This document shows, piece by piece, positions 7,615 to 26,639 of a stretch of DNA of 36,336 bases. Below the pieces are notes generated by a model. The model had not been told where the DNA came from and ran no database searches. It was given only the letters and a program-made list of their open reading frames with translations. This DNA is from Caulobacteraceae bacterium (lineage in GTDB: Bacteria > Pseudomonadota > Alphaproteobacteria > Caulobacterales > Caulobacteraceae): contig JAQGIW010000004.1 in NCBI GenBank assembly GCA_028290905.1, forward strand, positions 1-36,336, given 5' to 3'. Position numbers and translations under genes: made by a program. Numbering within the stretch: the stretch's first letter is position 1; each line of letters begins with the position of its first letter.

Positions 7615-7964
7615 GGGGTTTCCTCTTGGCCTGATGGCGCTTCCCTATCAGGTCACGCAGCCTTCGCCACTGGCAAGAGTCGCCGGGACGGACGGCAGCC
7701 CATGCGCCTCGGGCCGGTGATCGCGGGTCCTGCTGTCCGAAGACAATCGCTGAGTCAAGGCGCAGCGGATCGAAGAGTCCGGCAACCAAGGCATCTGAGC
7801 GGAAGTCGAACAGGCAAGCCCGCCGGGACGCACGACCTGCACTCGACCGGGCGGCTGGACCTCACCGGAACCGAGAAGGGACCCATATACTTGCTTCGCC
7901 CGCATGATGCTGATGGATGGCCGCCGGGCAATTTCGGCTTGGCCAGCATCGTCCCGGTGAGCCC
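7615..7964. other. Divergent control region between flavin oxidoreductase and LysR gene
   Basis: This 350-base gap should hold the promoters for both divergent genes. The clearest element is the inverted repeat at 7630-7652, given separately. No other gene is supported. An in-frame ATG at 7917 could start the LysR gene sixteen codons earlier, which would shorten the gap. Confidence 0.5.
7630..7652. promoter_or_regulatory. Candidate LysR-type operator (T-N11-A inverted repeat)
   Basis: CCTGAT (7630-7635) and ATCAGG (7647-7652) are perfect inverted arms with exactly 11 bases between, so the inner T and A form the T-N11-A core known for LysR-type regulators. It lies beside the start of the flavin oxidoreductase and on the side of the divergent gap facing away from the LysR gene. 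Being so near the start codon it could act as a repression site or an auxiliary site. Confidence 0.55.
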
Positions 7965-8978
7965 ATGCGCAAGATCAAGGCCGAGAACGTCTTTCCGGAA
8001 TTTGTTCCGGTGTCCGCCGCCGAACCCGAGGCCGGATACGCACCGGCTTCAGGGGTGCGGACCCGTCGACCGGCGCTCGAAGCCCTACGCGTATTCGAGG
8101 CGGCGGCGCGGCATGCAAGTTTCACCAAGGCGGCGGCGGAGCTCTGTGTCTCGCAAGCTGCGGTGAGCCAACGGATCCTGGCTTTGGAAGCCGATCTCGA
8201 CGTTCAGCTGTTCCGGCGCCTGACACGCAAGATCGAGCTCACCTCGGATGGCGAGCGTCTGGCCCGGGGTGTCCGCGAAGGGTTGGCGCGGATCGCTGGC
8301 GCCGTGAGCGATCTGGACCAGCGATCCGACGTTGGGCCGCTCGCAGTCAGCATGCTCCCCTCCTTTGCGTCCCGCTGGCTGGTGCGGCGGCTGCCGCGGT
8401 TCCAATATGCGCACCCGAACATCGAGGTGCTGGTGATGGCCGACGAGCACCCGGTCGATCTTCTGTCCGACGGCGCCGCCGACGTTGCGATCCGCTTCGG
8501 CCTTGGTCACTACCCCGGCCTCGCCACCTCGCCGCTGGCCCCCGACGGTGTCGGCCCAGTATGCACGCCGTTGCTGGTGGCTCGGTACGGGGTGATCGAG
8601 ACGATCGACGACATGCTCGATATGCCCTTGCTTCACGACTCGTCGGCCGACCGCGACGCCAGTGGCACGGGCTGGAAAAGCTGGCTCGCCCATGTCGGCG
8701 CGCCAAGCGACGATCCGCGGTTGATGATCGGACCTCGTTTTTCCCAGGCCCATCTCGCGATCGAGGGCGCTCTGCTCGGTCACGGTGTTACGCTGGCGCG
8801 CACAAGCCTGGCCGGCGACGATCTGGCGGCGGGGCGGCTGGTTCGCGTGCTTCCGCAGATCGCGCCGAGCAGATTCAAATATTTTCTCGTGTGCCGGCCC
8901 GAAGCCGCACGGCAAGGGAAGGTCATCAAATTTCGCGAATGGATGAAGGCCGAAATGAAGGCGACCAAACATCCCTGA
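7965..8978 (+). CDS. LysR-family transcriptional regulator, GcvA-like
   Basis: The product is 337 residues from the ATG at 7965; an ATG at 7917 is in frame and possible. The winged helix-turn-helix is seen in ALEALRVFEAAARHASFTKAAAELCVSQAAVSQRI and lies unusually far in, about 35 residues from the start, so a shorter start at a GTG near 8055 cannot be excluded. The C-terminal periplasmic-binding-like domain begins with GPLAVSMLPSFASRWLVRRL, and GAADVAIRFGLGHYPGL is typical of the GcvA subgroup (also AmpR, TrpI and dehalogenase or beta-lactamase regulators). The divergent flavin oxidoreductase gene is the obvious target. A GC hairpin with a GAAA loop at 9124-9139 may end the transcript. Confidence 0.9.
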   Translation: MRKIKAENVFPEFVPVSAAEPEAGYAPASGVRTRRPALEALRVFEAAARHASFTKAAAELCVSQAAVSQRILALEADLDVQLFRRLTRKIELTSDGERLARGVREGLARIAGAVSDLDQRSDVGPLAVSMLPSFASRWLVRRLPRFQYAHPNIEVLVMADEHPVDLLSDGAADVAIRFGLGHYPGLATSPLAPDGVGPVCTPLLVARYGVIETIDDMLDMPLLHDSSADRDASGTGWKSWLAHVGAPSDDPRLMIGPRFSQAHLAIEGALLGHGVTLARTSLAGDDLAAGRLVRVLPQIAPSRFKYFLVCRPEAARQGKVIKFREWMKAEMKATKHP

Positions 8979-9880: not shown

Positions 9881-10207
9881 ATGAAACATGCTCGTATTCG
9901 TTTGTTTACCGTCGCCTTAGGCCCGGTGACGGCGTTTGCCGCCGCCGCGCACGCGACCGAAAACGCCGGCGTCAACTGGACCCGCTTCTACGTCGGCGTG
10001 AATCTCGGTTGGAGCGGGTCGACCAATCGGCAAAAGGTCGCGACGTCCGACCACCGCGGGTCGTTGGTCGATCCCAGCGGCCCAACTCAGGCCGTGATGT
10101 TTCCCAGTTCCTCGAAGGGCGGAGGCTCGGGCGTCGCCGGCGGCGTCTCTCGGCGGTACCTGGCAGGCGCTGAATCTACGGCACACTCAAGAGGATTTTC
10201 TTCATGA
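9881..10207 (+). pseudogene. Truncated outer-membrane beta-barrel protein
   Basis: The 108-residue frame has AAAGGAG upstream, a signal peptide (MKHARIRLFTVALGPVTAF, cleavage near AHA-TE) and then VNWTRFYVGVNLGW, the first strand of opacity/Omp25-type porin-fold proteins (W-x-x-FYVGxNxGW). It loses the pattern after GGGSGVAGG, where normal members continue with GxQAGYNW and more strands for about 200 residues. The end is low in hydrophobics and looks out of frame. Its TGA overlaps the catalase ATG at 10204 (ATGA), so even as a remnant its translation could feed ribosomes to the catalase gene. Whether the short protein is made and exported is unknown. Confidence 0.55.
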
Positions 10208-11718
10208 TACTCAGAACACCATTGACGGCCCTGGCTGTCCTCGCGATCTCCGCCACCGGCGCGATCGCACAATCGACGACGATGACGCGCGATACCGGCG
10301 CGCCCGCCGGCGACAATCAGAATTCCAAGACCGCCGGGCCGGACGGGCCGGTTCTGCTCGAGGACATGTATCTCATCGAGAAGCTGGCTCGCTTCGACCG
10401 AGAACGCATTCCCGAACGGGTGGTCCATGCGCGCGGCACCGGCGCCCAAGGCGTATTCGTCACCACCGGCGATCTTTCCAAATACACCAAGGCTTCGCTC
10501 TTCGCCGCCCCGGGCAAGCAGACGCCGGTCTTCGTGCGGTTTTCGACCGTCATGAACTTCAGGGGTTCCCCTGAGGCGGCGCGTGACCCGCGGGGTTTCG
10601 CTGTCAAATTCTACACCGACCAGGGAAACTGGGATATCGTCGGTATCAATGAGCCGATCTTCTTCATTAGAGACGCTATAAAGTTTCCCGATTTCGTGCA
10701 CGCCAACAAGCCGTCGCCCGTGACCAACGTCCAGGACCCGAACCGGGCGTTCGACTTCTTCTCGCATGTGCCGGAATCGACCTACATGCTCACCATGCTC
10801 TACACCGACTCCATCGGCATGCCGAAGAGCTACCGCACGATGGATGGCTTTGGCGTCCACGCCTTCAGGCTCGTGGACAGCAACGGCCAGGCAGTGTTCG
10901 CCAAGTTCCATTGGAAGGCGCAAGAGGGTGTCCACGGCATGACGGCTGAAGAGGTCAAAGTAGCCGACACAGCTTACGCCACCAGGGACCTCTACGACAA
11001 CATCCGCGCGGGTAACTTTCCGAAATGGGATCTCTACGTCCAGATCCTGACCTCGGCCGAAGTCTCGAAGCTCAGCTATGACGGATTCGACGATACCAAG
11101 ACATGGAACGGCGTTCCCGAGGTCAAGGTCGGCACCATGACGCTGAACAAGGTTCCGGACAATTTCTTCCAGACCACGGAACAATCGGCCTTCTGCCCGT
11201 GCGAGCTGGTGCCGGGTATCGAGCCGTCACCCGACAAGATGCTGCAGGGGCGTCTGTTCGCCTATGCCGACACGCAGCGCTACCGGGTTGGCCCGAACTA
11301 CATGGAGCTGCCCGTCAATCGACCCTTGGCCTCGGTCAGCAACAACAATATCGACGGCGCGATGCAATTCGAACCGCGGCAGGGCGACGTGAACTACGAG
11401 CCGACCTCGGCCCCGGGGCCCGTCGAGCAAAACGACTTCCGCTACAGCCAATATCCGGTCGGCGGCGCCACCGAACAGAAGAAGATCGACAAGGAAGACA
11501 ACTTCCGCGAGGCCGGCGAGTTCTACCGCGGTCTGAGCAAGCATGAGCAGGATGACCTGATCAAGAACCTTGCCGGGGATATCGGTCAGGTGACCGACGT
11601 CCGGACCAGGCAGACCATGGTGAGCTATTTCTATCGCGCTGACGCCGACTATGGCGCGCGCCTCGCCAAGCTGGTCCATGTCGACATATCGGCCGTGATG
11701 GGCCGCGCCGGCGGCTAA
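10204..11718 (+). CDS. Exported monofunctional heme catalase (KatB-like)
   Basis: The 504-residue protein has a 22-residue signal peptide ending AIA-Q, so it acts in the periplasm, breaking down hydrogen peroxide. The catalase core aligns without gaps to human numbering: His75 in ERVVHARG, Ser114 in RFSTV, and the proximal heme Tyr in GRLFAYADT. The distal-Asn segment, normally VGNN, reads VGINEP, so Ile replaces the catalytic Asn148. DAIKFPDFVH resembles the KatB clade. CPC stands in the loop before the PGI-x-x-SPDKMLQGR heme segment, which I do not expect in most catalases. A GAGG precedes the ATG by eight bases. The ankyrin gene downstream repeats the Pseudomonas katB-ankB order. Confidence 0.92.
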   Translation: MILRTPLTALAVLAISATGAIAQSTTMTRDTGAPAGDNQNSKTAGPDGPVLLEDMYLIEKLARFDRERIPERVVHARGTGAQGVFVTTGDLSKYTKASLFAAPGKQTPVFVRFSTVMNFRGSPEAARDPRGFAVKFYTDQGNWDIVGINEPIFFIRDAIKFPDFVHANKPSPVTNVQDPNRAFDFFSHVPESTYMLTMLYTDSIGMPKSYRTMDGFGVHAFRLVDSNGQAVFAKFHWKAQEGVHGMTAEEVKVADTAYATRDLYDNIRAGNFPKWDLYVQILTSAEVSKLSYDGFDDTKTWNGVPEVKVGTMTLNKVPDNFFQTTEQSAFCPCELVPGIEPSPDKMLQGRLFAYADTQRYRVGPNYMELPVNRPLASVSNNNIDGAMQFEPRQGDVNYEPTSAPGPVEQNDFRYSQYPVGGATEQKKIDKEDNFREAGEFYRGLSKHEQDDLIKNLAGDIGQVTDVRTRQTMVSYFYRADADYGARLAKLVHVDISAVMGRAGG

Positions 11719-11820: not shown

Positions 11821-11886
11821 TTCGAGACCTTGGTTGCGGCGCCGGCGCAAGTCGGCGCCCAAAACCCGAAGATGGACCACCCAGCC

Positions 11887-12489
11887 ATGCCCCTGTTCAA
11901 AGCCCTCGGCGCCGTGGCGATCGCCTGCGCGTTGATCTCAGGCGCCGCGACCCGCGCCGCCGAATCCATTCCCAGCCACTACAAGGACCTCTACTTCGAC
12001 GCCGCGCGAGCCGGCCGCGCCGATCTGCTCGGAGGGATGATCAAGGACGGCTTCCCCGTCGATGAGCGCGACGGTCATGGCTATACCGCTCTGATCCTGG
12101 CCGCCTACGATGGTCACCTCGACACCGTGCAGTTTCTCCTCGCCAGGGGCGCGGATCCCTGCGCGGTCGACCAGAAGGGCGACAACGCGCTGATGGGCGT
12201 CGCCTTCAAGGGCGAGACCCTGATCGCCGAGGCGCTGGTGTCCCGCTGCGACGTCAACACGACCAATAGGTCTGGCCAGACGGCGGCGATGATGGCGGTG
12301 CTTTTCGGTCATCAGGACATCGTGCGGCTCCTCGCCGCCCATGGCGCCAAGCTCGGCATGCGAGACGCTTTGGGCAACTCAGCCGGCAGCCTGGCCCATC
12401 AACAGGGCAACGTGGAGATGGAGGCGCTGATCGCGCAGCTCGATCCACGCGATCAGACGCAAGCCGCTGCGATGGGAACGTCGAAATGA
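11887..12489 (+). CDS. Exported ankyrin-repeat protein (AnkB-like)
   Basis: From the ATG at 11887 the protein is 200 residues; in-frame ATGs at 11872 and earlier are also possible. It starts with a signal peptide (MPLFKALGAVAIACALISGAATRAA). Four ankyrin units follow: DLYFDAARAGRADLLGGMIKDG, DGHGYTALILAAYDGHLDTVQFLLARGAD, a diverged third (KGDNALMGVAFKGE) and SGQTAAMMAVLFGHQDIVRLLAAHGA. In Pseudomonas aeruginosa the periplasmic ankyrin protein AnkB is encoded after katB and is needed for full catalase activity and peroxide resistance, so this protein probably supports the catalase. A hairpin and a REP-like repeat separate the two genes by about 170 bases, so expression may be uncoupled. Confidence 0.85.
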   Translation: MPLFKALGAVAIACALISGAATRAAESIPSHYKDLYFDAARAGRADLLGGMIKDGFPVDERDGHGYTALILAAYDGHLDTVQFLLARGADPCAVDQKGDNALMGVAFKGETLIAEALVSRCDVNTTNRSGQTAAMMAVLFGHQDIVRLLAAHGAKLGMRDALGNSAGSLAHQQGNVEMEALIAQLDPRDQTQAAAMGTSK

Positions 12490-15081: not shown

Positions 15082-16337
15082 GCCCAGACTATATGCATGT
15101 GGGCGCCGTCGATCTTTCCGACAGCCGCAGCTTCGCCAAGGGTTTTCCGCACCCCTATTTCACCTGGCTGCGCGAGCACGCGCCGGTGTTCTGGCACGAG
15201 CCGACGGCGGTGACGCCGGAGGGCGAAGGGTTCTGGGTGGTGACCCGCCACGCGGACGTGCTGGCGGTGCAGACGCAGCCGCAGCTGTTCTCGTCCGAGA
15301 CGGGCGGGGGCCTGCGGGCCGGCGGCGGCACCGCGATCAACGACGACGTCAACGCCGGCCGGGCGCTCAACGCCACCGACGATCCCAAGCACGCCATGCT
15401 GCGCGGCGTGGTGATGAAGGGCTTCACCCTGCACGCCGTCGCCGCGCTGGAGGCCGACATCCGCCGCCGGGTCGACCTGCTGATCGACGCCTTCCCCGAG
15501 GACGAGCCGTTCGACTTCGTCGCCGCCTTCGCCCGCGAGGTTCCCCTGCAGGCGATCTGCATGGTCCTGGGCGTGCCGCAGGAGGACCGCCTGCGGCTGT
15601 GCGAGTGGGTGGACGCGGGGCTCTCCACCGCCTCGCCCTCGATCCTCGACGGCGAATACGCCAGGCGGATCGCCGACTATGGCCTCGGCCTCATCGGCAA
15701 AAAGCGCGCCGAACCGAAGGACGACATCCTGTCGGTGATCGTCCACGCCCGGCCCGACGAGGCGGGCGGGCGGCCGCTGAACGAGGGCGAGCTGCGCAGC
15801 TTCTTCCTGCTGCTGTTCGCCGCCGGGGCGGAGACCACCCGCAGCGCCATCGCCGGCGGCATGAAGGCGCTGATCGAGAACCCCGGGCAGATGGCCTTGC
15901 TGGGCGCAGAGCCGGCCCGCCTGAAGACGGCGATCGAGGAGTTCGTGCGCTGGACCACGCCCTCGATCTACAAGCGCCGCACCGCCTCATCCGACACCGA
16001 GCTGGCGGGCCAGCCCATCCGCGCCGGCCAGAAGGTGACCTTCTGGGAGATGTCGGCCAATCGCGACGAGCGGGCGTTCGAGCGGCCGTTCGCCTTCGAC
16101 ATCACCCGCTCGCCCAACCCGCACCTGGGCTTCGGCTACGGCGTGCACGTGTGCCTGGGATCGATGCTGGCGCGCCTGGAGATGCGCGTCGCCTACGAGG
16201 CCCTGCTGCGGCGCGTGGACGGCTTCGCCCTGGCAGGACCCGAGGACTGGATGCCGTCGAACCGGCTGCTGGGCATCCGCCGCCTGCCGATCACCATCAC
16301 CCGCAAGGACCGACCCCCCAAGGAGCAACGCCCATGA
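15078..16337 (+). CDS. Cytochrome P450
   Basis: The 419-residue monooxygenase starts at GTG 15078, overlapping the previous stop by four bases; an ATG at 15093 is the alternative. The I-helix oxygen-activation motif is AGAETT (Glu252, Thr253), the ExxR pair is Glu288 and Arg291 (EFVR), and the heme loop is FGYGVHVCLG with the thiolate Cys359. It is soluble, without a membrane anchor. The AGAETT form and overall pattern resemble bacterial CYP families acting on terpenes, linalool or steroid side chains (CYP111, CYP125, CYP142 and relatives). No ferredoxin or ferredoxin reductase gene is nearby. It probably hydroxylates the same substrate family as the neighbouring Rieske enzyme. Confidence 0.93.
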   Translation: MSPDYMHVGAVDLSDSRSFAKGFPHPYFTWLREHAPVFWHEPTAVTPEGEGFWVVTRHADVLAVQTQPQLFSSETGGGLRAGGGTAINDDVNAGRALNATDDPKHAMLRGVVMKGFTLHAVAALEADIRRRVDLLIDAFPEDEPFDFVAAFAREVPLQAICMVLGVPQEDRLRLCEWVDAGLSTASPSILDGEYARRIADYGLGLIGKKRAEPKDDILSVIVHARPDEAGGRPLNEGELRSFFLLLFAAGAETTRSAIAGGMKALIENPGQMALLGAEPARLKTAIEEFVRWTTPSIYKRRTASSDTELAGQPIRAGQKVTFWEMSANRDERAFERPFAFDITRSPNPHLGFGYGVHVCLGSMLARLEMRVAYEALLRRVDGFALAGPEDWMPSNRLLGIRRLPITITRKDRPPKEQRP

Positions 16338-16693
16338 CCGACCTCGCCGACCGCATGCAGAAGGGCCGCGCCGTGGCCGCCAAGCTGTTCGCCGGCGCGA
16401 CCTCCCGCGCCGCGTCGATGCCAGCCAAGTTCCAGGAATACACCTTCGGCCATCTGTTCGGCGAGGTGTGGCAGGACGAGACCCTGTCCCTGGCCGAACG
16501 CGAACTGGTCACCTGCACGACCCTGGTGGCGCTGAACCGCATCGCCGAGCAGCACCTGCATTTCGTGGGGGCCAGGAACGCCGGTGTGCCGCGCGAGAAG
16601 ATCGAGGCGATGATCGCCCATGTCGCCCACTACGCCGGCTGGCCCTGCGCCGCCTCCGCGTTCGGGGTGCTCAACGAGGTTTGGCCAGCCTGA
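16334..16693 (+). CDS. Carboxymuconolactone decarboxylase family protein
   Basis: The 119-residue all-helical protein starts at ATG 16334, which overlaps the P450 stop (ATGA) and has AAGGAG eight bases upstream. The CMD core is visible: LSLAERELVTCTTLVALNRI, then EQHLHFVGARNAGVPREKIEAMIAH. It lacks the CxxC of AhpD-type peroxidases, so it is closer to gamma-carboxymuconolactone decarboxylase. In the beta-ketoadipate pathway that enzyme removes CO2 from a lactone. The rest of that pathway is not in the window, so the true substrate here is open; a lactone or beta-keto acid from the same operon is the natural guess. Confidence 0.88.
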   Translation: MTDLADRMQKGRAVAAKLFAGATSRAASMPAKFQEYTFGHLFGEVWQDETLSLAERELVTCTTLVALNRIAEQHLHFVGARNAGVPREKIEAMIAHVAHYAGWPCAASAFGVLNEVWPA

Positions 16694-18595: not shown

Positions 18596-19849
18596 TCAAT
18601 TCTTCGGCACGTCCCGGAACGGGCGGTCGTTGTCCGTCCGCGGCTCCTTCGGCATGCCCAGCACCCGTTCGGCGATGATGTTGCGCTGGATCTCGTCGGT
18701 GCCGCCGGCGATCGACACCGCCGGCACGGAGACCAGGATTTCGGCGATCACGCCGTCCATCGGCCCGTCCTCGCCGGTCAGCATGGCGTCGGCGCCCGAG
18801 ATCAGCGTGTGGACATGGGCCGCGGCGCGCGCCACGTGGCTGGCGGCCAGCTTGCCGAGGGAGCCTTCCGGGCCGGGCGGCTTGCCTGCGGCCTGCGCGG
18901 TCCGGGCCCGCCGCGACGTGAATTCCGCGCTTTTCGCCAGGACCAGCAGCTTCGCGATCTCCTGACGCGCCACAGGGTCGTTGATCGCCCCGGTCGCCTT
19001 GGCCCGCTCGACGATCAGGTCCACCCGGCCGGCGCGCTGCGGATACCACTTGTAGGGCTCCATGGCCGTGGCGATCTCGGCCCGCTCCTCCTCGTAGATC
19101 CGCCCCTTGCGGTCCGAGGCCTGGACCCGGACGTTGAAGCCGTCGGCGCCCCGGCGCTCGTGCATCAGGGTCGTCGTCGCCACCGCCCAGCCGTCGCCGA
19201 CCTTGGCGACGAGGTGCTCGGGCGGGACCTCGGCGTCGGTGAAGAACACCTGGTTGAACGAGGCGTGGCCGTTCATCTGCCGGAGCGGGCGCACCTCGAC
19301 CCCCGGCTGGTCGATCTGCAGGATGAAGTACGACAGCCCCAGGTGCTTGGGGACGTTCGGATCGGTGCGCGCCAGCAGCATGCCCCAGTCGGCGTGGTGG
19401 GCGCTGGTGGTCCACACCTTCTGGCCGTTGATCACCCAGCGGCCGTCCTTGAACTCGGCCCGGGTCGAGGCGCCGGCCAGGTCCGAACCGCTACCCGGCT
19501 CGCTGAACAACTGGCACCAGTTGTCCTCGCCGGTCAGGCTGCGGCGCAGAAACTTCGCCTTGTGGAAATCGTCGCCGTGCGCCAGCAGCGTCGCCGCCGC
19601 CAAGCTCCGCACGCCGGACCGGGCCACGCCCACCGCGCCGATCCGCCGCGTCTCCTCGGCGACCACCGCCTCCAGCGCCGCCGGCAGCTCGCGGCCGAAC
19701 CAGGCATTGGGCCAGCCCGGCACGCCCCAGCCGGAGTCGATCAGCCGGTTACGCCATTCCACCAGGCCCAGCTCCGGGTCCCAGTTCGCCTCCAGCCAGG
19801 CGCGCACCTGGGCGCGGACGGAGGCTTCGGTCGCATCGCTCTTCGTCAT
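18596..19849 (-). CDS. Acyl-CoA dehydrogenase, catalytic subunit of a probable heteromeric pair
   Basis: The 417-residue flavoprotein desaturates an acyl-CoA at C2-C3. The substrate/FAD segment WCQLFSEPGSGSDLAG (111-126), the NGQKVWTTSA strand (141-150) and the C-terminal GGTDEIQRN are visible. The catalytic base is probably Glu231 in LMHERRG, the position used by isovaleryl- and long-chain-type enzymes; the medium-chain position near GGTDE has Gly. The start is taken at ATG 19849, eleven bases after the upstream stop, although the frame is open further. It follows a second, degenerate acyl-CoA dehydrogenase gene, as in the alpha2beta2 ChsE-type enzymes (FadE26-FadE27, FadE28-FadE29) of steroid catabolism. 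Confidence 0.9.
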   Translation of the reverse strand: MTKSDATEASVRAQVRAWLEANWDPELGLVEWRNRLIDSGWGVPGWPNAWFGRELPAALEAVVAEETRRIGAVGVARSGVRSLAAATLLAHGDDFHKAKFLRRSLTGEDNWCQLFSEPGSGSDLAGASTRAEFKDGRWVINGQKVWTTSAHHADWGMLLARTDPNVPKHLGLSYFILQIDQPGVEVRPLRQMNGHASFNQVFFTDAEVPPEHLVAKVGDGWAVATTTLMHERRGADGFNVRVQASDRKGRIYEEERAEIATAMEPYKWYPQRAGRVDLIVERAKATGAINDPVARQEIAKLLVLAKSAEFTSRRARTAQAAGKPPGPEGSLGKLAASHVARAAAHVHTLISGADAMLTGEDGPMDGVIAEILVSVPAVSIAGGTDEIQRNIIAERVLGMPKEPRTDNDRPFRDVPKN

Positions 19850-19860
19850 CACATCACCGC

Positions 19861-20991
19861 TCACAGGCCCATCCCCCGCAGCATCAGCTCGCGGTGCCAC
19901 TCCGGCCCGCCCAGGAACACCTCGGAACTCTTGGCGCGCTTGAACCAGAGGTGAGTGTCGTTGTCACAGGTGAAGCCGATGCAGCCATGGATCTGGATGT
20001 TGTCGATCGCCGCGCGGAGGTAGGCCTCCGAGGCGCCGGCCTTGGCCAGGGAGGCGAGTGCGGGCCAGTCGGCGTCCTCCTCGGCGGCAGCGGAGGCGGC
20101 GGCGTAGGCGGCCGACTTGGCGAGCTGCACTTCGAGCAGCATGTCAGCCTGCTTGTGCTTCATCGACTGGAACGAGGCGATCGGGCGGCCGAACTGGACG
20201 CGCAGGTTGGCGTAGTCGAGCGCCGACTCCCGCAGCCGCTCGGCGCCGCCCACCATCTCGTTGGCCAGGCACATCGCCGCCTGCGCCAGGGTCCTGGCCA
20301 ACGGCCCCGCGCCGCCACCTTCCTCTCCCAGCAACTCCGACTCCACCGACCGGAACTCCAGGCGCGCCTGTTTGCGGGTCGGGTCGAGCACCTTGAGCGC
20401 GCGCCGCGTGAGGCCGGGCGCGTCGCCCGCCACGGTGAACAGCGACAGCCCCTCGTCCCCCGCCGTGCCCGGGCGTCGGGCCGCGACGACGATCAGGTCG
20501 GCGGTGTGGCCGTCGAGGACGAAGCTCTTCACCCCGTCCAGCCGATACCCGCCGCCCACGGGCGTCGCCGTCGCTTCGATCCCCGAGCTGTCCCAGCGCC
20601 CGTTCGGTTCGGTGAACGCCAGGGTCGCGATCGTCTCGCCGAGCGCGATCGGCGGCAGCAGGGCGGTCTTCTGCACCTCGCTCGCCGCATTCATGATCGC
20701 CGTCGCCGCCAGCACGGTCGAGGAGAAATAGGGCGCGCAGAGCAGAGCCCGGCCCATCTCCTCCAGCACGATGCCGAGCTCGACGAAGCCGAAGCCCTGG
20801 CCGCCAAAGGATTCCGGGATGTGGACGCCGGTGAGGCCAAGCTGGTCGTTCAGCGCCCGCCAGCCCTCCCGGTCCCACCCCGCCTCGGTCTCCATCCACC
20901 GCCGCACGGCTGCGGGCGGCGATTTCTCCTGCAGGAACCGTCGCAGCACCGACCGGAACTCGTCCTGTTCAGGGGTGAAGCTGAACTGCAT
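19861..20991 (-). CDS. Acyl-CoA dehydrogenase, degenerate partner subunit
   Basis: The 376-residue protein has the acyl-CoA dehydrogenase fold: N-terminal helices (FSFTPEQDEFRSVLRRFL), AFTEPNGRWD in place of the usual TEPxAGSD, and a C-terminal helix with IHGCIGFTCDNDTHLWFKRAK. The catalytic Glu is absent at both known places: the QERL-type position reads AQAAM and the YEGT-type position reads FLGG. TEPxxGSD is also lost. That fits the non-catalytic half of a heterotetramer with the gene just downstream. The start is ATG 20991 with GGAG six bases upstream. A conserved promoter element at 21031-21062 lies 40 bases before it. Confidence 0.88.
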   Translation of the reverse strand: MQFSFTPEQDEFRSVLRRFLQEKSPPAAVRRWMETEAGWDREGWRALNDQLGLTGVHIPESFGGQGFGFVELGIVLEEMGRALLCAPYFSSTVLAATAIMNAASEVQKTALLPPIALGETIATLAFTEPNGRWDSSGIEATATPVGGGYRLDGVKSFVLDGHTADLIVVAARRPGTAGDEGLSLFTVAGDAPGLTRRALKVLDPTRKQARLEFRSVESELLGEEGGGAGPLARTLAQAAMCLANEMVGGAERLRESALDYANLRVQFGRPIASFQSMKHKQADMLLEVQLAKSAAYAAASAAAEEDADWPALASLAKAGASEAYLRAAIDNIQIHGCIGFTCDNDTHLWFKRAKSSEVFLGGPEWHRELMLRGMGL

Positions 20992-21030
20992 GGCGTCTCC
21001 TCTCCGCGGCTCGGGCCCGCGCGACTTTGC

Positions 21031-21062
21031 CAGCACCCTAGACAAGTCCGCGGCGTTGTCAG
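21031..21062 (-). promoter_or_regulatory. Shared promoter/operator element, copy 1
   Basis: On the minus strand it reads as a -35 CTGACA (21062-21057), 16 bases, then a -10-like TAGGGT (21040-21035). It matches the element at 26267-26298 at 27 of 32 positions, including spacer bases that a plain promoter would not conserve. The spacer carries an imperfect inverted pair GACAAC/CTTGTC, suggesting a repressor site over the promoter. Confidence 0.65.
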
Positions 21063-21090
21063 GCGCCGATGTGGGCCGGCGATGTGCAGG

Positions 21091-21954
21091 TCAGCGTCGC
21101 TTCGCCTCGGCGGCCTTCGCGACGAGGATGCGGTCGCGGGCGTTGAGATAGTCGTAGATCGCGTCGACCTCGGCGTCGGTGAAGTGGCTGAAGTTGGCCT
21201 GGGCCGTCTGGGTCATCAGCGCCATGTTTCCCTCGCCGATGGCGTCACCCTTCTGGATGAGGGCGTGGAACTGCGCGCGGCTGTAGTAGCCGCGGACGGT
21301 CATGTCCGGACCGACGTCCCTGATCCCGCCAAGGTCAGTCCCGTGGCAGCGTCCGCAGGCGATCGCGGCCAGATGCCGTCCGGCCGCGAAGGGCGCGCCG
21401 GCGTCGACCGGCGGACGGGCGGCGGCGACCTTCTCCGTCTCGGTCTGGAGCGCGCCGACCACAAGCGCCGCGCGCAGCAGGAGACCGGGACGGGGCTTGG
21501 GCAGCTCAATCCCCTGCGGGGGAAGGGCGCGCAGGCGGGCGGTGATCGCGGCGATCTCGTCGTCGGTGAAGGCGCTATAGGCGTGCGCCGGCATCACCAG
21601 CTCGCTCGTTCCATCCGGGCGCAGCCCCGCGCGGAGAGCCCGGTCGATATCGGCGTCGGAAAGCGCCTTGGGCTGCAGGGTCAGGTTGGGCGTGTAGACT
21701 TCAGTTCCGAACACGCGCAGCGGCCCGCCGATCAGATCCGTCCCGTGGCACCCCGAGCAGGCCGAGATCGCGATCAGCCGCGCGCCACGGGCTTCCGCCT
21801 CGGGGGTCCGTTCGACCACGATCCGGCTGGGGGGCAAGGCGTGGCGAGCCACCAGGATCGCCTGGGAACGGGACTTGATCAGTTGGCAGCCGCCGGCAAT
21901 CGCGGCGAGGGCGACAACGGCGCCGAGAGCGGGAAGCCACTTCGATCTGGACAT
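21091..21954 (-). CDS. Exported diheme cytochrome c
   Basis: The 287-residue protein begins with a signal-anchor (WLPALGAVVALAAIAGG, about 6-22). It has two c-type heme sites: CSGCH (66-70) with a likely axial Met121 in ELVMPAH, and CGRCH (200-204) with a candidate Met near 244. It has two repeated domains of about 100 residues, each ending in an F(T/S)D-x-E helix, as in gluconate or alcohol dehydrogenase cytochrome subunits. It probably passes electrons in the periplasm, but no matching dehydrogenase gene is adjacent. The ATG at 21954 is preferred because it gives a proper signal peptide; the frame is open for 24 codons upstream. Confidence 0.88.
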   Translation of the reverse strand: MSRSKWLPALGAVVALAAIAGGCQLIKSRSQAILVARHALPPSRIVVERTPEAEARGARLIAISACSGCHGTDLIGGPLRVFGTEVYTPNLTLQPKALSDADIDRALRAGLRPDGTSELVMPAHAYSAFTDDEIAAITARLRALPPQGIELPKPRPGLLLRAALVVGALQTETEKVAAARPPVDAGAPFAAGRHLAAIACGRCHGTDLGGIRDVGPDMTVRGYYSRAQFHALIQKGDAIGEGNMALMTQTAQANFSHFTDAEVDAIYDYLNARDRILVAKAAEAKRR

Positions 21955-22098
21955 GGAACTTTGCGGCAACCCTTGCGCCGCGTGGATGGCCCCGGCGGCC
22001 CGCCTCTGAGCATTATCCACCGGCAAAGGCGAGAGGCGCGAGCGCTCTATTTCAAGCCTTCGACCAGGACGCTACACTCCGTGTTCCTCCGGGTTCCG

Positions 22099-22270
22099 AT
22101 GCCCCCGTCCCGTCGCGTCCTCGCGGGTTTATCGCTGTGCGTGCTGGCGACAGCGAGCGCCGCCTTTGGGGCAGCTCGATCCGATGGCGACGTTCGCATC
22201 AACCCGATCCAGGTGATCGGCGCCCATAACAGCTACCATGCCGGGCTGACGCCGGGCGTCGCCGGGCCAC
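22099..22270 (+). pseudogene. Remnant of a Ca-dependent phosphoinositide-specific phospholipase C
   Basis: From ATG 22099 the frame gives a signal peptide (RRVLAGLSLCVLATASAAFGA) followed by RINPIQVIGAHNSYHAGLTPGV, the start of the bacterial Ca-dependent PI-PLC domain with the catalytic His in GAHNSYH. After TPGVA the match ends abruptly: the frame continues with Gly/Arg-rich filler into the next small gene. Normal members are about 350-400 residues, so over 80 percent is missing. A deletion seems to have joined this start to the region before 22378. Confidence 0.6.
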
Positions 22271-22377
22271 GCCCCGGTGCGCTGCAACCCGGCGAGCGCG
22301 CCGAAAGGGTGGGGGGACGCCAGCTTGGCGAGAGACGACTTGGTCCCTCTCAGCCCGAAAGCTGGTACGGTCGGGGA

Positions 22378-22572
22378 ATGACGGATTCAGAAAGACCGCT
22401 GCGCGACCAGCTCGACGAAGCCATCGATCGGATTCGTCGCGAACTGGAGATCCTCGAATCTCCATCGAGCATCGGCGGCGGCGCGGATAGCCGCAGCGTC
22501 GTCGCGGACCTCAGAAAAGAACTGCGGGAGCTCGAGGAGGCGCGGGCCAATGTAGGGCCCCACGAGGTCTGA
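22378..22572 (+). CDS. Small coiled-coil protein of unknown function
   Basis: The 64-residue product starts at ATG 22378. Two charged helices with Leu/Ile heptads, LDEAIDRIRRELEILE and VVADLRKELRELEEARANV, flank a Ser/Gly loop (SPSSIGGGADSR), suggesting a helical hairpin. Composition and codon use are coding-like. The only ribosome-like bases (CGGGGA) touch the ATG, which is poor. It is in frame with the phospholipase remnant upstream, but I read it as its own gene. It converges with the peroxidase gene (16-base gap). Confidence 0.55.
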   Translation: MTDSERPLRDQLDEAIDRIRRELEILESPSSIGGGADSRSVVADLRKELRELEEARANVGPHEV

Positions 22573-22588
22573 AGCCGAGCGCCCAGGC

Positions 22589-24088
22589 TTACGGCGCCTT
22601 CGCCGGGATATACCCGTCGGTCAGCGTCTTCAGGAAGGCGACGATGTCATCCTCCTGCGCCTCGGTCAGGCCGAGGTTGCCCAGTTCGGTCTTGTCCAGG
22701 TTCTGCGTGGTCTCCGGCGCAGGCCAGCACGTCGTCCCCTCGCCCGGATCGTGGGGCTGGCAGCGCCGCAAGGTGTCGCGCGTGTTGTAGAAGTGCACGA
22801 TCATCTTCAGGCTGGTGAAATAGCCGTTGTGCCCATAGGCCTTCACGAAGGTCGGATAGGGCCGCATGTCCACATTGCGCAGGGTCGGCACCTGGACGCG
22901 GCCGGAATTGCCCGGCGCCAGGGGGAGCCACCGCGCGTCCACCGCCGAGGGATGGCTCAGCTCCGGCCCGTTGGCGAGGAAGGTGCCGACGCCGCCGTCG
23001 ACGTATGAGGCCCCGGCCGGATTGGCCACATAGCCCCGGGGGTCGGGTCGGCTCTCCCGGTAGTAGGGAAGCCTCGGATTGGCCGGCGATCCGATATTGA
23101 TCGCCGTGAAGTCGGTGAACAGCGGGTCCTCGCCAGGCCCGCCGTCGCGGTGACAATTGTTGCACAGGCCCTTGCCGCGGAAGAGGTCGTAGCCCGCCTT
23201 CTCCTGCGCCGTGAACTTCGCGTTCCCCGCCTGCACGGCGTCGAACTTCGAGGTGAACGGGGTCTCCGCGGCGGACGCCTCGAAGCCCGCCATGGATTGC
23301 GCCATCTGATCGAAGGTGGCGCTGACAAGACCGCGGTCGCGGGGGCTGAGGTGCACCGGCAAGGGGTCGGCGGCGGTGGGTGGCCCCGGCCGGTTGCAGA
23401 CCCGCTCCACGTTGCCGGGCCAGCTGACCGCGAACGCCTGCCGGCCCCACACCTGTTCGAAAAGGGCGCGATAGGGCCGCCGCGAGGCGCGATAGACCGC
23501 GCAGGCAGTGTCGGGAAGGCCCATCTCCACGGGGTTGACGGGGGGCCCCTGCGCCTGCTCGGCGGCGGGATTGCCGAGGCGCCGGCCGGTGGCGCGCATG
23601 TCCCAGAAATTGCCACCGACCAGGTCCCCTCGGGCGGTGTTGTAGTGGAGCACGGGCGACAGCGCCGCGTAGGCGTGCGACTGCGGCTTGCGATTGCTGA
23701 ACCGCGTGCGCACCGACCCGGGATAGGCGGCGGTGGTCGCATTCAATTCCGAAACCGGACCGGCGAACCCGGCCTCGGGCATGTGGCAGAAAGCACAGGC
23801 CTCGTTGCGGTTCACCGACAGCTGCTTGTCGTACATCATCGCCTTGCCGAGCAGCTCGACCTGCTGGGTGAGGTTGCTTGGCGGCGCCGCGAGCCTGGCC
23901 AGCGTCTTCGCCTCGATCCGGTCGATCTCGGCCTCGACCTGGGCGAGCTCCTGCTGCCCGCGCGGTGAGAGTCCCGGGACGTTTTGCTCTGCAGTGCTTT
24001 GACTCGCGTGCGGCGCACAGGCGACCGCGCCCAGGCTGGCGGCGGCCACGATCGCTGTGATGGGCAAGAGCGAGCGTGGTATCCCCAC
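22589..24088 (-). CDS. Diheme cytochrome c peroxidase/MauG-family protein
   Basis: The protein is about 499 residues. It has an N-terminal export signal (LLPITAIVAAASLGAVACAPH) with a possible lipid-attachment Cys about 24 residues in, then CAFCH (about 98-102) and CNNCH (about 309-313), the two heme sites of the bacterial cytochrome c peroxidase fold. At about 500 residues it is longer than the 330-residue peroxidases; an insert lies between the heme sites (about 130-290). It could reduce peroxide or oxidise a partner. I prefer the GTG at 24088 (GGAGG six bases before) to an ATG at 24094 that touches the ribosome site. TATAGT near 24115 may be a -10 box. The diheme cytochrome at 21091 is a possible electron donor. 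Confidence 0.85.
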   Translation of the reverse strand: MGIPRSLLPITAIVAAASLGAVACAPHASQSTAEQNVPGLSPRGQQELAQVEAEIDRIEAKTLARLAAPPSNLTQQVELLGKAMMYDKQLSVNRNEACAFCHMPEAGFAGPVSELNATTAAYPGSVRTRFSNRKPQSHAYAALSPVLHYNTARGDLVGGNFWDMRATGRRLGNPAAEQAQGPPVNPVEMGLPDTACAVYRASRRPYRALFEQVWGRQAFAVSWPGNVERVCNRPGPPTAADPLPVHLSPRDRGLVSATFDQMAQSMAGFEASAAETPFTSKFDAVQAGNAKFTAQEKAGYDLFRGKGLCNNCHRDGGPGEDPLFTDFTAINIGSPANPRLPYYRESRPDPRGYVANPAGASYVDGGVGTFLANGPELSHPSAVDARWLPLAPGNSGRVQVPTLRNVDMRPYPTFVKAYGHNGYFTSLKMIVHFYNTRDTLRRCQPHDPGEGTTCWPAPETTQNLDKTELGNLGLTEAQEDDIVAFLKTLTDGYIPAKAP

Positions 24089-24127
24089 CCCCATCCTCCG
24101 CTGAAGCGCGCGGCTACTATAGCGCCC

Positions 24128-25291
24128 CTAGAGCGTGCGCGCGATGAGCAGCTTCATGATCTCGTTGGCGCCGCCATAGATCCGCTGGACCCGGGCGTCG
24201 CGGTACATCCGCGCGATCGGATATTCCAGCATGTAGCCGGCTCCGCCGTGCAGCTGCAGGCACTCGTCGATGATCCGGCACTGGGTGTCGGTGACCCAGT
24301 ACTTGGCCATCGAGGCGGTGGCCGCGTCCAGCTCGCCCTTCAGGTGGCGCTCGATGCAATGGTCGACGAACACCCGCGCGATGGTCGCCTCGGTCTTGCA
24401 CTCCGCCAGCTTGAACTGGGTGTTCTGGAAATCGAGGATCGTCTTGCCGAACGCCTTGCGCTGCCGGGCGAAGGCGATGGTTTCGGTGAGGGCGCGTTCG
24501 GTGGCGGCTATGCCCTGGATGGCGATCATCAGCCGCTCCTGCGGCAGCTTGGCCATCAGCTGATGCAGGCCGGCCCCCTCGGATTCGCCGAGCAGGTTGT
24601 CGGCCGGGACCCGGACGTCCTCGAAGAACAGTTCGGAAGTGTCCGCGGCCTCCAGGCCGATCTTGTCGAGGTTGCGGCCGCGCATGAAGCCCGGGCAGTC
24701 GTCGGTCTCGACGAAGACGAGCGAGATCGCGTCGGATCCCGTTCCTTCGCCGGTCTTCACCACCACGGCGATCAGGTTCGCCGTCTGGCCGTTGGTGATG
24801 TAGGTCTTCTGGCCGTTGATCACATAGTGGTCGCCGTCGCGGCGGGCGCGGGTGCTGATGCCCCGCAGGTCCGACCCGGCCCCGGGCTCCGTCATCGCGA
24901 TGGCCGAGATCAGCTCGCCGGTCACCATGCGCGGGAGCCAGCGCGCCTTCTGCTCTTCCGTGCCGAAGCTGACGATGTAGGGGGCGACGATGGCGTTGTG
25001 CAGCGGCGCGCCGAAGGCGTCGAGGCCGCGGTGGTACTGCTCCTCGATCAGGGCCGCCTCGAACCGGAAGTCCAGCCCGGCCCCGCCGAACTCTTCCGGG
25101 ATGGTGAGCCCCAGCAGCCCCGCCTCCGCGGCGTCCTTCCACAGCTGCCGCGGGATCACCCCATCCTCGCGCCACCGCTCCAGGGCCTCGGGCGGTGCGT
25201 GGGTGTCGAAGAAGCGCCGCAGGGTGTCCTCGAACAGCCGCAGGCTCTCGTCGTCGAAGACGGCGGGGCGGGGGGCGAGGGTGGCTGTCAT
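24128..25291 (-). CDS. Acyl-CoA dehydrogenase
   Basis: The 387-residue enzyme has all standard landmarks: TIPEEFGGAG (63-72), the FAD/substrate loop AMTEPGAGSDL (132-142), NGQKTYITNG (159-168) and the C-terminal LQLHGGAGYMLEYPIARMYRDARVQRIYGGANEI. The base is Glu252 in LPQERLMIA, the isovaleryl/long-chain-type position; the medium-chain position is Gly. It should be a homotetramer acting on medium to long or branched acyl-CoA. I choose ATG 25291, with AAGG seven bases before and its ATGA overlapping the stop of a coding-like fragment. An ATG two codons earlier is possible. It probably forms one transcript with the SDR gene upstream. Confidence 0.92.
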   Translation of the reverse strand: MTATLAPRPAVFDDESLRLFEDTLRRFFDTHAPPEALERWREDGVIPRQLWKDAAEAGLLGLTIPEEFGGAGLDFRFEAALIEEQYHRGLDAFGAPLHNAIVAPYIVSFGTEEQKARWLPRMVTGELISAIAMTEPGAGSDLRGISTRARRDGDHYVINGQKTYITNGQTANLIAVVVKTGEGTGSDAISLVFVETDDCPGFMRGRNLDKIGLEAADTSELFFEDVRVPADNLLGESEGAGLHQLMAKLPQERLMIAIQGIAATERALTETIAFARQRKAFGKTILDFQNTQFKLAECKTEATIARVFVDHCIERHLKGELDAATASMAKYWVTDTQCRIIDECLQLHGGAGYMLEYPIARMYRDARVQRIYGGANEIMKLLIARTL

Positions 25292-25402
25292 CGGCATGCC
25301 TTCAGGAACGAGGGTTCGGGGTCGAGGATCATGGTGTTGGCCTTGTCGGCGGCCGTGGTGAGAACGGGGGCGTTGAGCCCGAAAAGGCCCTCGTTGGCAA
25401 TA
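25288..25402 (-). pseudogene. C-terminal fragment of a lost gene between SDR and acyl-CoA dehydrogenase
   Basis: Directly after the SDR stop, a different reading frame runs about 38 codons with strongly coding-like codon choice (DIANEGLFGLNAP, then TTAADKANTM, ILDPEPSFLKACR). It ends in a TGA that overlaps the acyl-CoA dehydrogenase ATG as ATGA. No start codon in this frame lies in the gap. It looks like the tail of a gene once coupled to the dehydrogenase. I do not recognise the family. Confidence 0.4.
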
Positions 25403-26230
25403 TCACCGCCGGCCCCGGGCCAGCATGGCGGGAGATTGCGAGAGGTCGATCCAGCCGCCGAGCCGGCCGGCGGTCATGCCGCCGTCGACGACGATGTCGA
25501 CACCGTTGAGCCAGCCGCAGTCGCCGATGGCGACGAAGGCGATGACCTTGGCGATGTCGTCGGGCGTGGCCGACCGGCCGATGTGGCTGTTCATCCAGGC
25601 GACCTGCTCGGCGCCGATCTGGGCGGTAAAGTTCTCGGTGAGCCGCGTGTCGACGCCGCCGGGACTCACCGCGTTGACCCTGACGCCGTGGGCCCTCGCC
25701 GCGCCGACGGCGCGGTAGCTCCAGGCCACCACGCATTGCTTGGAAAAGGTGTAGGGATCCTTTTCCCAAAGGCCGCCGTTCTCGCGGCACCACGCCAGGC
25801 CGGCGGCGAAGTCGGCGGTGTCGAGCAACTGATCGATCACTGCGGCCCGGCGTTGCCAGTTCTGCGCGGCGGTCGAGGCGACGTTGACGACGCTGCCGCC
25901 CCGCGACATGCGCGGCAGCAGGCGCTCGGTCAGGTGGCGAAGGCCCAGGAAATTGACCGCGATCACCGGCTCGGCCGGCCGGGGGCCGGGGATGCCGGCG
26001 ACGTTGACCAGCACGTCCCACCGTCCGGGAAGACCCTCGAGCGCGGCGTCTATGGCGGCCGGATCGGAGAGGTCGCAGCGCACGAACGCGCAAGCGCCGT
26101 CTCCCGGCTCCGCGACATCGAGGATCGTGACCTCAGCGCCTGAAGCCGCCAACCTCGCCGCGGTGGCCGCCCCGATCCCCGTTGCGCCCCCGGTGAGCAG
26201 CACCTTCGCGCGTCGCGATGAATCGGCCAT
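25403..26230 (-). CDS. SDR family oxidoreductase, 3-alpha-hydroxysteroid dehydrogenase-like
   Basis: The 275-residue protein has TGGATGIG (cofactor loop, near 13-20), NVAG, NVAS (catalytic Ser) and YTFSK with the catalytic Tyr and Lys. The pattern around VDGGM near the end and the long loop before YTFSK resemble 3-alpha-hydroxysteroid dehydrogenase/carbonyl reductase of Comamonas and related NAD-dependent alcohol dehydrogenases, so a cyclic alcohol or steroid-like substrate is plausible. ATG 26230 is chosen because GGAAG lies just upstream; the frame is open for 14 more codons. The conserved promoter element (26267-26298) is 37 bases before it. It appears to lead a transcript ending in the acyl-CoA dehydrogenase at 24128. 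Confidence 0.88.
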   Translation of the reverse strand: MADSSRRAKVLLTGGATGIGAATAARLAASGAEVTILDVAEPGDGACAFVRCDLSDPAAIDAALEGLPGRWDVLVNVAGIPGPRPAEPVIAVNFLGLRHLTERLLPRMSRGGSVVNVASTAAQNWQRRAAVIDQLLDTADFAAGLAWCRENGGLWEKDPYTFSKQCVVAWSYRAVGAARAHGVRVNAVSPGGVDTRLTENFTAQIGAEQVAWMNSHIGRSATPDDIAKVIAFVAIGDCGWLNGVDIVVDGGMTAGRLGGWIDLSQSPAMLARGRR

Positions 26231-26266
26231 GCGTCTTCCACCCTGAGGCGCTCCTGTGGGCGCCGC

Positions 26267-26298
26267 CGGCACCCTAGACGAGCCGGCGGTGTTGTCAG
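26267..26298 (-). promoter_or_regulatory. Shared promoter/operator element, copy 2
   Basis: On the minus strand CTGACA (26298-26293), 16 bases, then TAGGGT (26276-26271), lying 37 bases before the SDR start. It matches the element at 21031-21062 at 27 of 32 positions with the same spacing and nearly the same distance to the start codon. The inverted pair is GACAAC/CTCGTC. Its -35 overlaps the stop codon of the upstream gene. Confidence 0.65.
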
Positions 26299-26639
26299 CC
26301 GTCCATCGGGGCCGGCGGCTGGACCGTCACATTGAGCGCGCGCTCCACCGCCGCGTGGAAGTTTGGTGTCGACCACTCGACCATCGGGTCGGCCTGGCGG
26401 GCGATGGCCCGGGCGTCTTCCAGTGAAATTCCGGTCACCACGAAACAGACGAACCAGACTCCGTCGACCAGCAGATAGCGCGCGGTCCTCGTCTCCTTGT
26501 CGTACTGTTCCAGACGATGTTTCCGGCCGGGCTGGAGCATCGGCCGCACGCCCTCGCCGCGCGGCACGCTGGCGAGAAAGCGCTCGATCCCCTCGGCATC
26601 CTCCAGGAGCGCCGTGGCCCGCAAAACCTCGATGCCCAT
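26295..26639 (-). CDS. Small protein of unknown function
   Basis: The 114-residue product starts at ATG 26639 with GGGAG upstream. It has no signal peptide or membrane helix. The middle (HRLEQYDKETRTARYLLVDGVWFVCFVVTGISLEDARAIARQAD) alternates strands and helices, like a small alpha/beta fold. I recognise no family. It lies just ahead of the SDR gene, in the same direction, but the SDR has its own promoter element, so co-regulation is uncertain. A palindrome AGGCTAGCCT (26665-26674) lies 26 bases upstream and may be its control site. Confidence 0.6.
   Translation of the reverse strand: MGIEVLRATALLEDAEGIERFLASVPRGEGVRPMLQPGRKHRLEQYDKETRTARYLLVDGVWFVCFVVTGISLEDARAIARQADPMVEWSTPNFHAAVERALNVTVQPPAPMDG

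Follow-up and report, generated by a model that had tools for sequence, protein, structure and literature searches.

The window analysed here is the whole stretch of 36,336 nucleotides that makes up positions 1 to 36,336 of contig JAQGIW010000004.1 from a Caulobacteraceae bacterium. Two catabolic units lie on its minus strand, one consisting of the acyl-CoA dehydrogenase genes acadB and acadC and the other of an SDR gene followed by a third acyl-CoA dehydrogenase gene, acadA (Table 1). Between the units, on the same strand, are a gene resembling MauG/di-haem cytochrome c peroxidases (22589–24094, −) and a cytochrome gene. Each unit is preceded by one copy of a 53-base block.

Table 1. Positions of the genes, block copies and putative promoter elements in the window
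Feature	Position	Strand	Remarks
acadC, acyl-CoA dehydrogenase partner	18596..19900	−	Pfam and PDB matches; adjoins acadB in orthologous loci
acadB, acyl-CoA dehydrogenase; opens the unit behind copy 1	19861..20991	−	Pfam and PDB matches
Block copy 1 (53 bases)	21029..21081	−	37 bases before the acadB ATG
TAGGGT, copy 1	21035..21040	−	putative −10 box, 16 bases from CTGACA; from sequence
CTGACA, copy 1	21057..21062	−	putative −35 box; from sequence
CGCCGGCCC, copy 1	21073..21081	−	invariant upstream nine; non-coding, nine bases past the cytochrome stop (21091–21093)
acadA, acyl-CoA dehydrogenase; follows the SDR gene in the unit behind copy 2	24128..25291	−	
SDR, coniferyl-alcohol/3-alpha-hydroxysteroid dehydrogenase-like, first gene behind copy 2	25403..26230	−	NCBIfam and PDB matches
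Block copy 2 (53 bases)	26265..26317	−	34 bases before the SDR ATG
TAGGGT, copy 2	26271..26276	−	putative −10 box; from sequence
CTGACA, copy 2	26293..26298	−	putative −35 box; its TGA is the stop of the upstream ORF (26295–26297)
CGCCGGCCC, copy 2	26309..26317	−	invariant upstream nine; lies in the 3′-terminal part of the 114-aa ORF and contributes to its PPAP codons
114-aa ORF	26295..26639	−	runs at its 3′ end into copy 2; two genus mates have orthologues

The two catabolic units and their relatives

With a score of 260.7 the SDR exceeds the coniferyl-alcohol dehydrogenase cutoff of NCBIfam (242), and it has a 3-alpha-hydroxysteroid dehydrogenase among its better PDB matches. In the PDB acadB is closest to a general acyl-CoA dehydrogenase, with Tcur3481 and 4x28_D ranking lower, whereas acadC is closest to Tcur3483 and then to 4x28_A. 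4x28 is ChsE4-ChsE5, and Tcur3481/3483 act on steroid side chains. The adjacent acadB and acadC may accordingly form a heteromeric acyl-CoA dehydrogenase of the steroid type. The true start of acadC is probably an in-frame ATG near 19849.

Among 397 other genomes of the order protein searches matched acadB in one, at 44% (E 1e-80), and among 384 others of the class in 24 (E 1e-75), the best 13 at 65–73%; the SDR turned up in two of 117 other relatives, both of the same genus, at 82% (E 1e-60), and in seven of 384 others of the class (E 1e-70). These counts rest on the best first-look candidates per genome (four in the order, five for acadB and six for the SDR in the class), so that weaker or hidden relatives may be missed. 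As acadB lacks a close match in the order genomes searched but has orthologues of 65–73% in other families of the class, the acadBC pair was probably acquired. In all 14 loci returned (for 14 of the 24 genomes; 59–73%) acadC adjoins acadB. acadA, present in 20 of 22 genomes, is too widespread to inform on a link between the units.

Some further genes were observed in passing. The same genome holds a second set of two acadC-like genes and one acadB-like gene (33–41% identity; locus L106, G000:C280, 646–4259), where the pattern scan described below gave no copy of the element. A gene resembling carboxymuconolactone decarboxylases adjoins acadBC in 3 of the 14 loci, and the window itself carries a fusion-like ORF with a carboxymuconolactone decarboxylase domain at its end (15599–16693, +). 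Homologues of this hydrolase-decarboxylase lie beside acadBC in L094, L095 and L099, and one lies near one of the seven SDR regions (L120).

A 53-base block before both units

The initial annotation described a 32-base element at 21031–21062 (CTGACAACGCCGCGGACTTGTCTAGGGTGCTG) and 26267–26298 (CTGACAACACCGCCGGCTCGTCTAGGGTGCCG), with 27 of 32 positions identical, one orientation and 16 bases between CTGACA and TAGGGT, all of which is borne out when the sequence is re-read. Its extent was drawn too short, the match itself being real: without gaps the two copies agree at 43 of 53 positions. The ungapped score of 33 compares with maxima of 17 in 1500 pairs of dinucleotide shuffles and of 18 in 1476 random pairs of 150-base segments from the window, so that the same sequence stands at near-equal distance before both units beyond chance. 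Both CTGACA and TAGGGT are fully conserved (6/6 each), the spacer agrees at 12/16 positions, the upstream part at 14/19 and the last six bases at 5/6. Identities cluster at CTGACAAC (8/8) and GTCTAGGGTGC (11/11), and the first nine bases of the block, CGCCGGCCC, are identical in the two copies (9/9). The edges of the block are sharp. Between the two leaders (37 and 34 bases, from block to start codon) the similarity score was equalled by 33% of 2000 shuffles, and between the upstream 60-mers by 45% of 2000; since the flanks are no more alike than shuffles, the block is a discrete element and not a piece of a long duplication.

Within the window there is no third copy, the next best score with a matrix of the 32-base sites being 11.2 against 45.6 and 44.0, which upholds the earlier statement that none precedes the oxygenase, RND or cytochrome genes. 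Across the genome (5.23 Mb scanned, 96% complete, so that a third copy could be missing) the core pattern of 24 fixed positions, allowing up to three mismatches, was found only at our two sites and the reversed control gave none; the block is thus confined to the two units at this stringency, and the motif was not found before housekeeping genes, which had been named beforehand as the result that would speak against a shared regulon. Taken by halves the pattern is less distinctive. The −35/spacer half has 29 genome sites including our two, against 22 for controls (up to three mismatches), and the −10 half has 14 including our two, against three (up to two mismatches), an excess that tells against uniqueness. 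Eleven of the 12 other −10-half sites fall within an ORF of at least 120 aa, including two (L071 and L077) with middling third-position G+C and uncertain coding status, and the remaining one (L070) lies outside and has no CTGACA at the right place. Such cover is weak proof of coding, as ORFs of at least 120 aa also cover our own two sites.

The block pattern was absent, at up to three mismatches, from all 248 other family genomes scanned, which were drawn from a larger group. Upstream of 23 orthologues (14 of acadB and nine of the SDR, 600 bases each) the best score was 2.4, against 69.7 and 68.1 for our two copies and a maximum of 20.2 in a background of 2034 blocks, some of them overlapping. 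Conservation before these 23 orthologues would have lent support to a common control region and is not strictly required by it. An exact pattern of 18 fixed positions and one two-way position, run against the genome_contigs collection (84,980 species, from which the genome that holds the window, and genomes very close to it, may be missing), returned one stretch, in Burkholderia (L032). By eye its surroundings are unlike ours apart from the pattern and we put it down to chance. Plasmid matches to an 81-base query (18 records, 13 of them Streptomyces, with several of those shown falling in IS3 transposase genes) were also set aside, none covering 80% of the query.

Putative promoter layout and possible regulation

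With CTGACA as the putative −35 box and TAGGGT as the putative −10 box, the block would span −53 to −1 and transcription would start at the next base, an extent that suits a shared promoter. Stretches resembling ribosome-binding sites (GGAG, GGAAG) can be read by eye between the block and each ATG. The fit to consensus is loose. TAGGGT agrees with TATAAT at 3/6 positions, and a consensus scan for sigma-70-like promoters found none at the block where 0.5 were expected. The consensus given in PMC8144410 for promoters of the principal sigma factor (RpoD) of Caulobacter is TTGaCgS and GCtANAWC, and according to PMC4287350 93% of the RpoD motifs in a mapped Caulobacter set have their 5′ base 34–37 bases before the start. 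When these motifs are aligned with CTGACAA and TCTAGGGT the spacing between the two is 13 bases in both cases, and the putative start, which falls 34 bases past the first base of the upstream box, fits the range of PMC4287350; the block, however, matches the motifs of PMC8144410 at only 4/7 and 4/8 positions, and this consensus is a yardstick only that may not be the host's.

A housekeeping or general promoter is argued against by there being only two copies in the genome. Consistent with this, the box pair itself (CTGACA-like to TAGGGT, 16 bases apart, up to one mismatch) is not clearly enriched genome-wide, with 20 sites against 15 for controls, and the stricter form TTGACA-N15–19-CTAGGGT gave none in the genome and one in the control. 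The reading towards which we lean, with rather modest confidence, is that the two blocks are copies of one promoter region (−53 to −1), copied within the lineage and driving acadB–acadC and SDR–acadA as a small lineage-specific regulon. Copy 1 would drive the acyl-CoA dehydrogenase pair and copy 2 the SDR–acyl-CoA dehydrogenase unit, and a regulator may act on the block.

As to that regulator, the initial annotation had proposed a promoter overlapped by a repressor site that makes the two units one regulon. Of this proposal the promoter and the regulon are favoured by the promoter-sized block, its two genome copies and the gene co-occurrence described below; the repressor palindrome is not. 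The arms of the claimed inverted repeat, GACAAC with CTTGTC or CTCGTC, are present, but the 20-base dyad pairs at 8/10 positions in copy 1 and 6/10 in copy 2, and the 6/10 shared by both is no better than chance, being reached in 34% of 2000 column shuffles (9% for copy 1 and 98% for copy 2). We therefore think it unlikely that a TetR-like repressor dimer sits on GACAA-N10-TTGTC between the boxes and blocks RNA polymerase until a catabolic intermediate acts as inducer. The 8/10 dyad of copy 1 and a spacer conserved at 12/16 positions, above what a plain promoter needs, would suit such an operator, and a parallel can be drawn to the bile-salt cluster of Caenibius tardaugens, for which PMC12882949 proposes a TetR gene with palindromes as possible operators. 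Against this, the dyad decays to 6/10 in copy 2 with no compensating change, recent copying would give the same conservation of the spacer, and a Pfam scan found no TetR gene among the 39 distinct ORFs of the window. The only regulator among these 39 is of LysR type (7917–8978, +), and nothing ties it to the sites. It lies about 1.2 kb before a catalase gene (10204–11718, +), an arrangement that recalls OxyR and its target, and the catalase gene is directly followed by one for an ankyrin-repeat protein (11830–12489, +).

Less probable still is that an activator, with the invariant CGCCGGCCC (−53 to −45) as its site, aids polymerase at a weak core promoter. Activators often bind at about this position, the nine bases are identical between the copies and the core fits the consensus weakly, but the 114-aa gene uses the nine bases of copy 2 as codons, so that constraint or descent explains their identity, and a G+C-only string of this kind would be expected often in G+C-rich DNA. 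That the block is a neutral duplicated fragment with no role in transcription we regard as improbable, since both copies lie on the same strand, each in front of a catabolic unit and 34–37 bases from its ATG, and their identities cluster on CTGACAAC and GTCTAGGGTGC, even if two copies only, sharp edges and an overlap with a coding tail would be natural for such a fragment.

Compared with known arrangements, the putative two-unit regulon resembles an ordinary two-operon catabolic regulon, in which a shared promoter/operator controls both operons, in that one control region recurs in front of two transcription units that encode related enzymes; it differs in that no palindrome stands above chance and the element is absent from the relatives searched. 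Reused or ‘mobile’ promoters of prokaryotes were reportedly described by Matus-Garcia, Nijveen and van Passel in 2012, a work cited by PMC9208149 and PMC8049555, and the likeness there is a short promoter-like sequence that recurs before unrelated genes in one genome. Here, in contrast, a single pair of copies, 81% alike, shares one strand at a distance of 5.2 kb, and no spreading family was seen; with two copies in the genome, a mobile promoter or repeat family of many near-identical copies was rejected.

Probable descent of the copies and the link between the units

Copy 2 overlaps the end of the 114-aa ORF, the TGA within its CTGACA being the stop codon. Two genus mates have orthologues of the ORF (77% and 65%), and in one genome of the order there is a match at 34%. 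Read from the DNA, the C-terminal tails of the genus mates are TFPPAG and TFPASN, compared with TVQPPAPMDG here, so that the first nine bases of the block in copy 2 are partly old codons. The two copies most likely share descent, one promoter having been copied locally within the lineage. The simplest order, judged from the one coding tail, is that copy 2 came first and a copy was then set before acadBC; the segment would have come from the 3′-terminal part of the 114-aa gene that precedes the SDR, and would have landed where the cytochrome gene ends, ahead of the probably acquired pair. The copy would have been kept because both units serve one catabolic route.

Gene content is consistent with such a route. 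acadB is present in five of the seven SDR-bearing class genomes (G643, G678, G815, G891 and G908), against 24 of 384 overall; the hypergeometric probability of this co-occurrence is 1.2e-5, a value that ignores relatedness and assumes, in line with the handles and tallies, that two draws of 385 genomes are identical. The genus mate G070 carries its SDR orthologue at the end of a same-strand run, after two acyl-CoA dehydrogenase genes and then two enoyl-CoA hydratase genes, but this acyl-CoA dehydrogenase pair is only 36–40% like acadB and acadC. Outside the family none of the 14 acadBC regions and nine further regions inspected has the SDR and acadBC side by side. That the SDR, acadBC and the decarboxylase-like neighbours all belong to one route is plausible.

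Taken a step further, the copying may have been a transplantation, in which a copy of a 53-base segment, with a resident gene's coding tail in it, was placed 5.2 kb away, just before the newly acquired acyl-CoA dehydrogenase pair, and wired the imports into an existing catabolic response in one step. We put this forward tentatively, as a possible but doubtful course of events. If it is true, the locus would be a small and datable example of acquired catabolic genes obtaining a host promoter by the copying of a neighbouring one and not by the evolution of a new one; its interest would lie mainly in its being a recent rewiring event, ordinary in kind. If the two-unit regulon is real, it would offer two testable promoters and a set of genes, the SDR and three acyl-CoA dehydrogenases, whose predicted joint response would help in naming the substrate.
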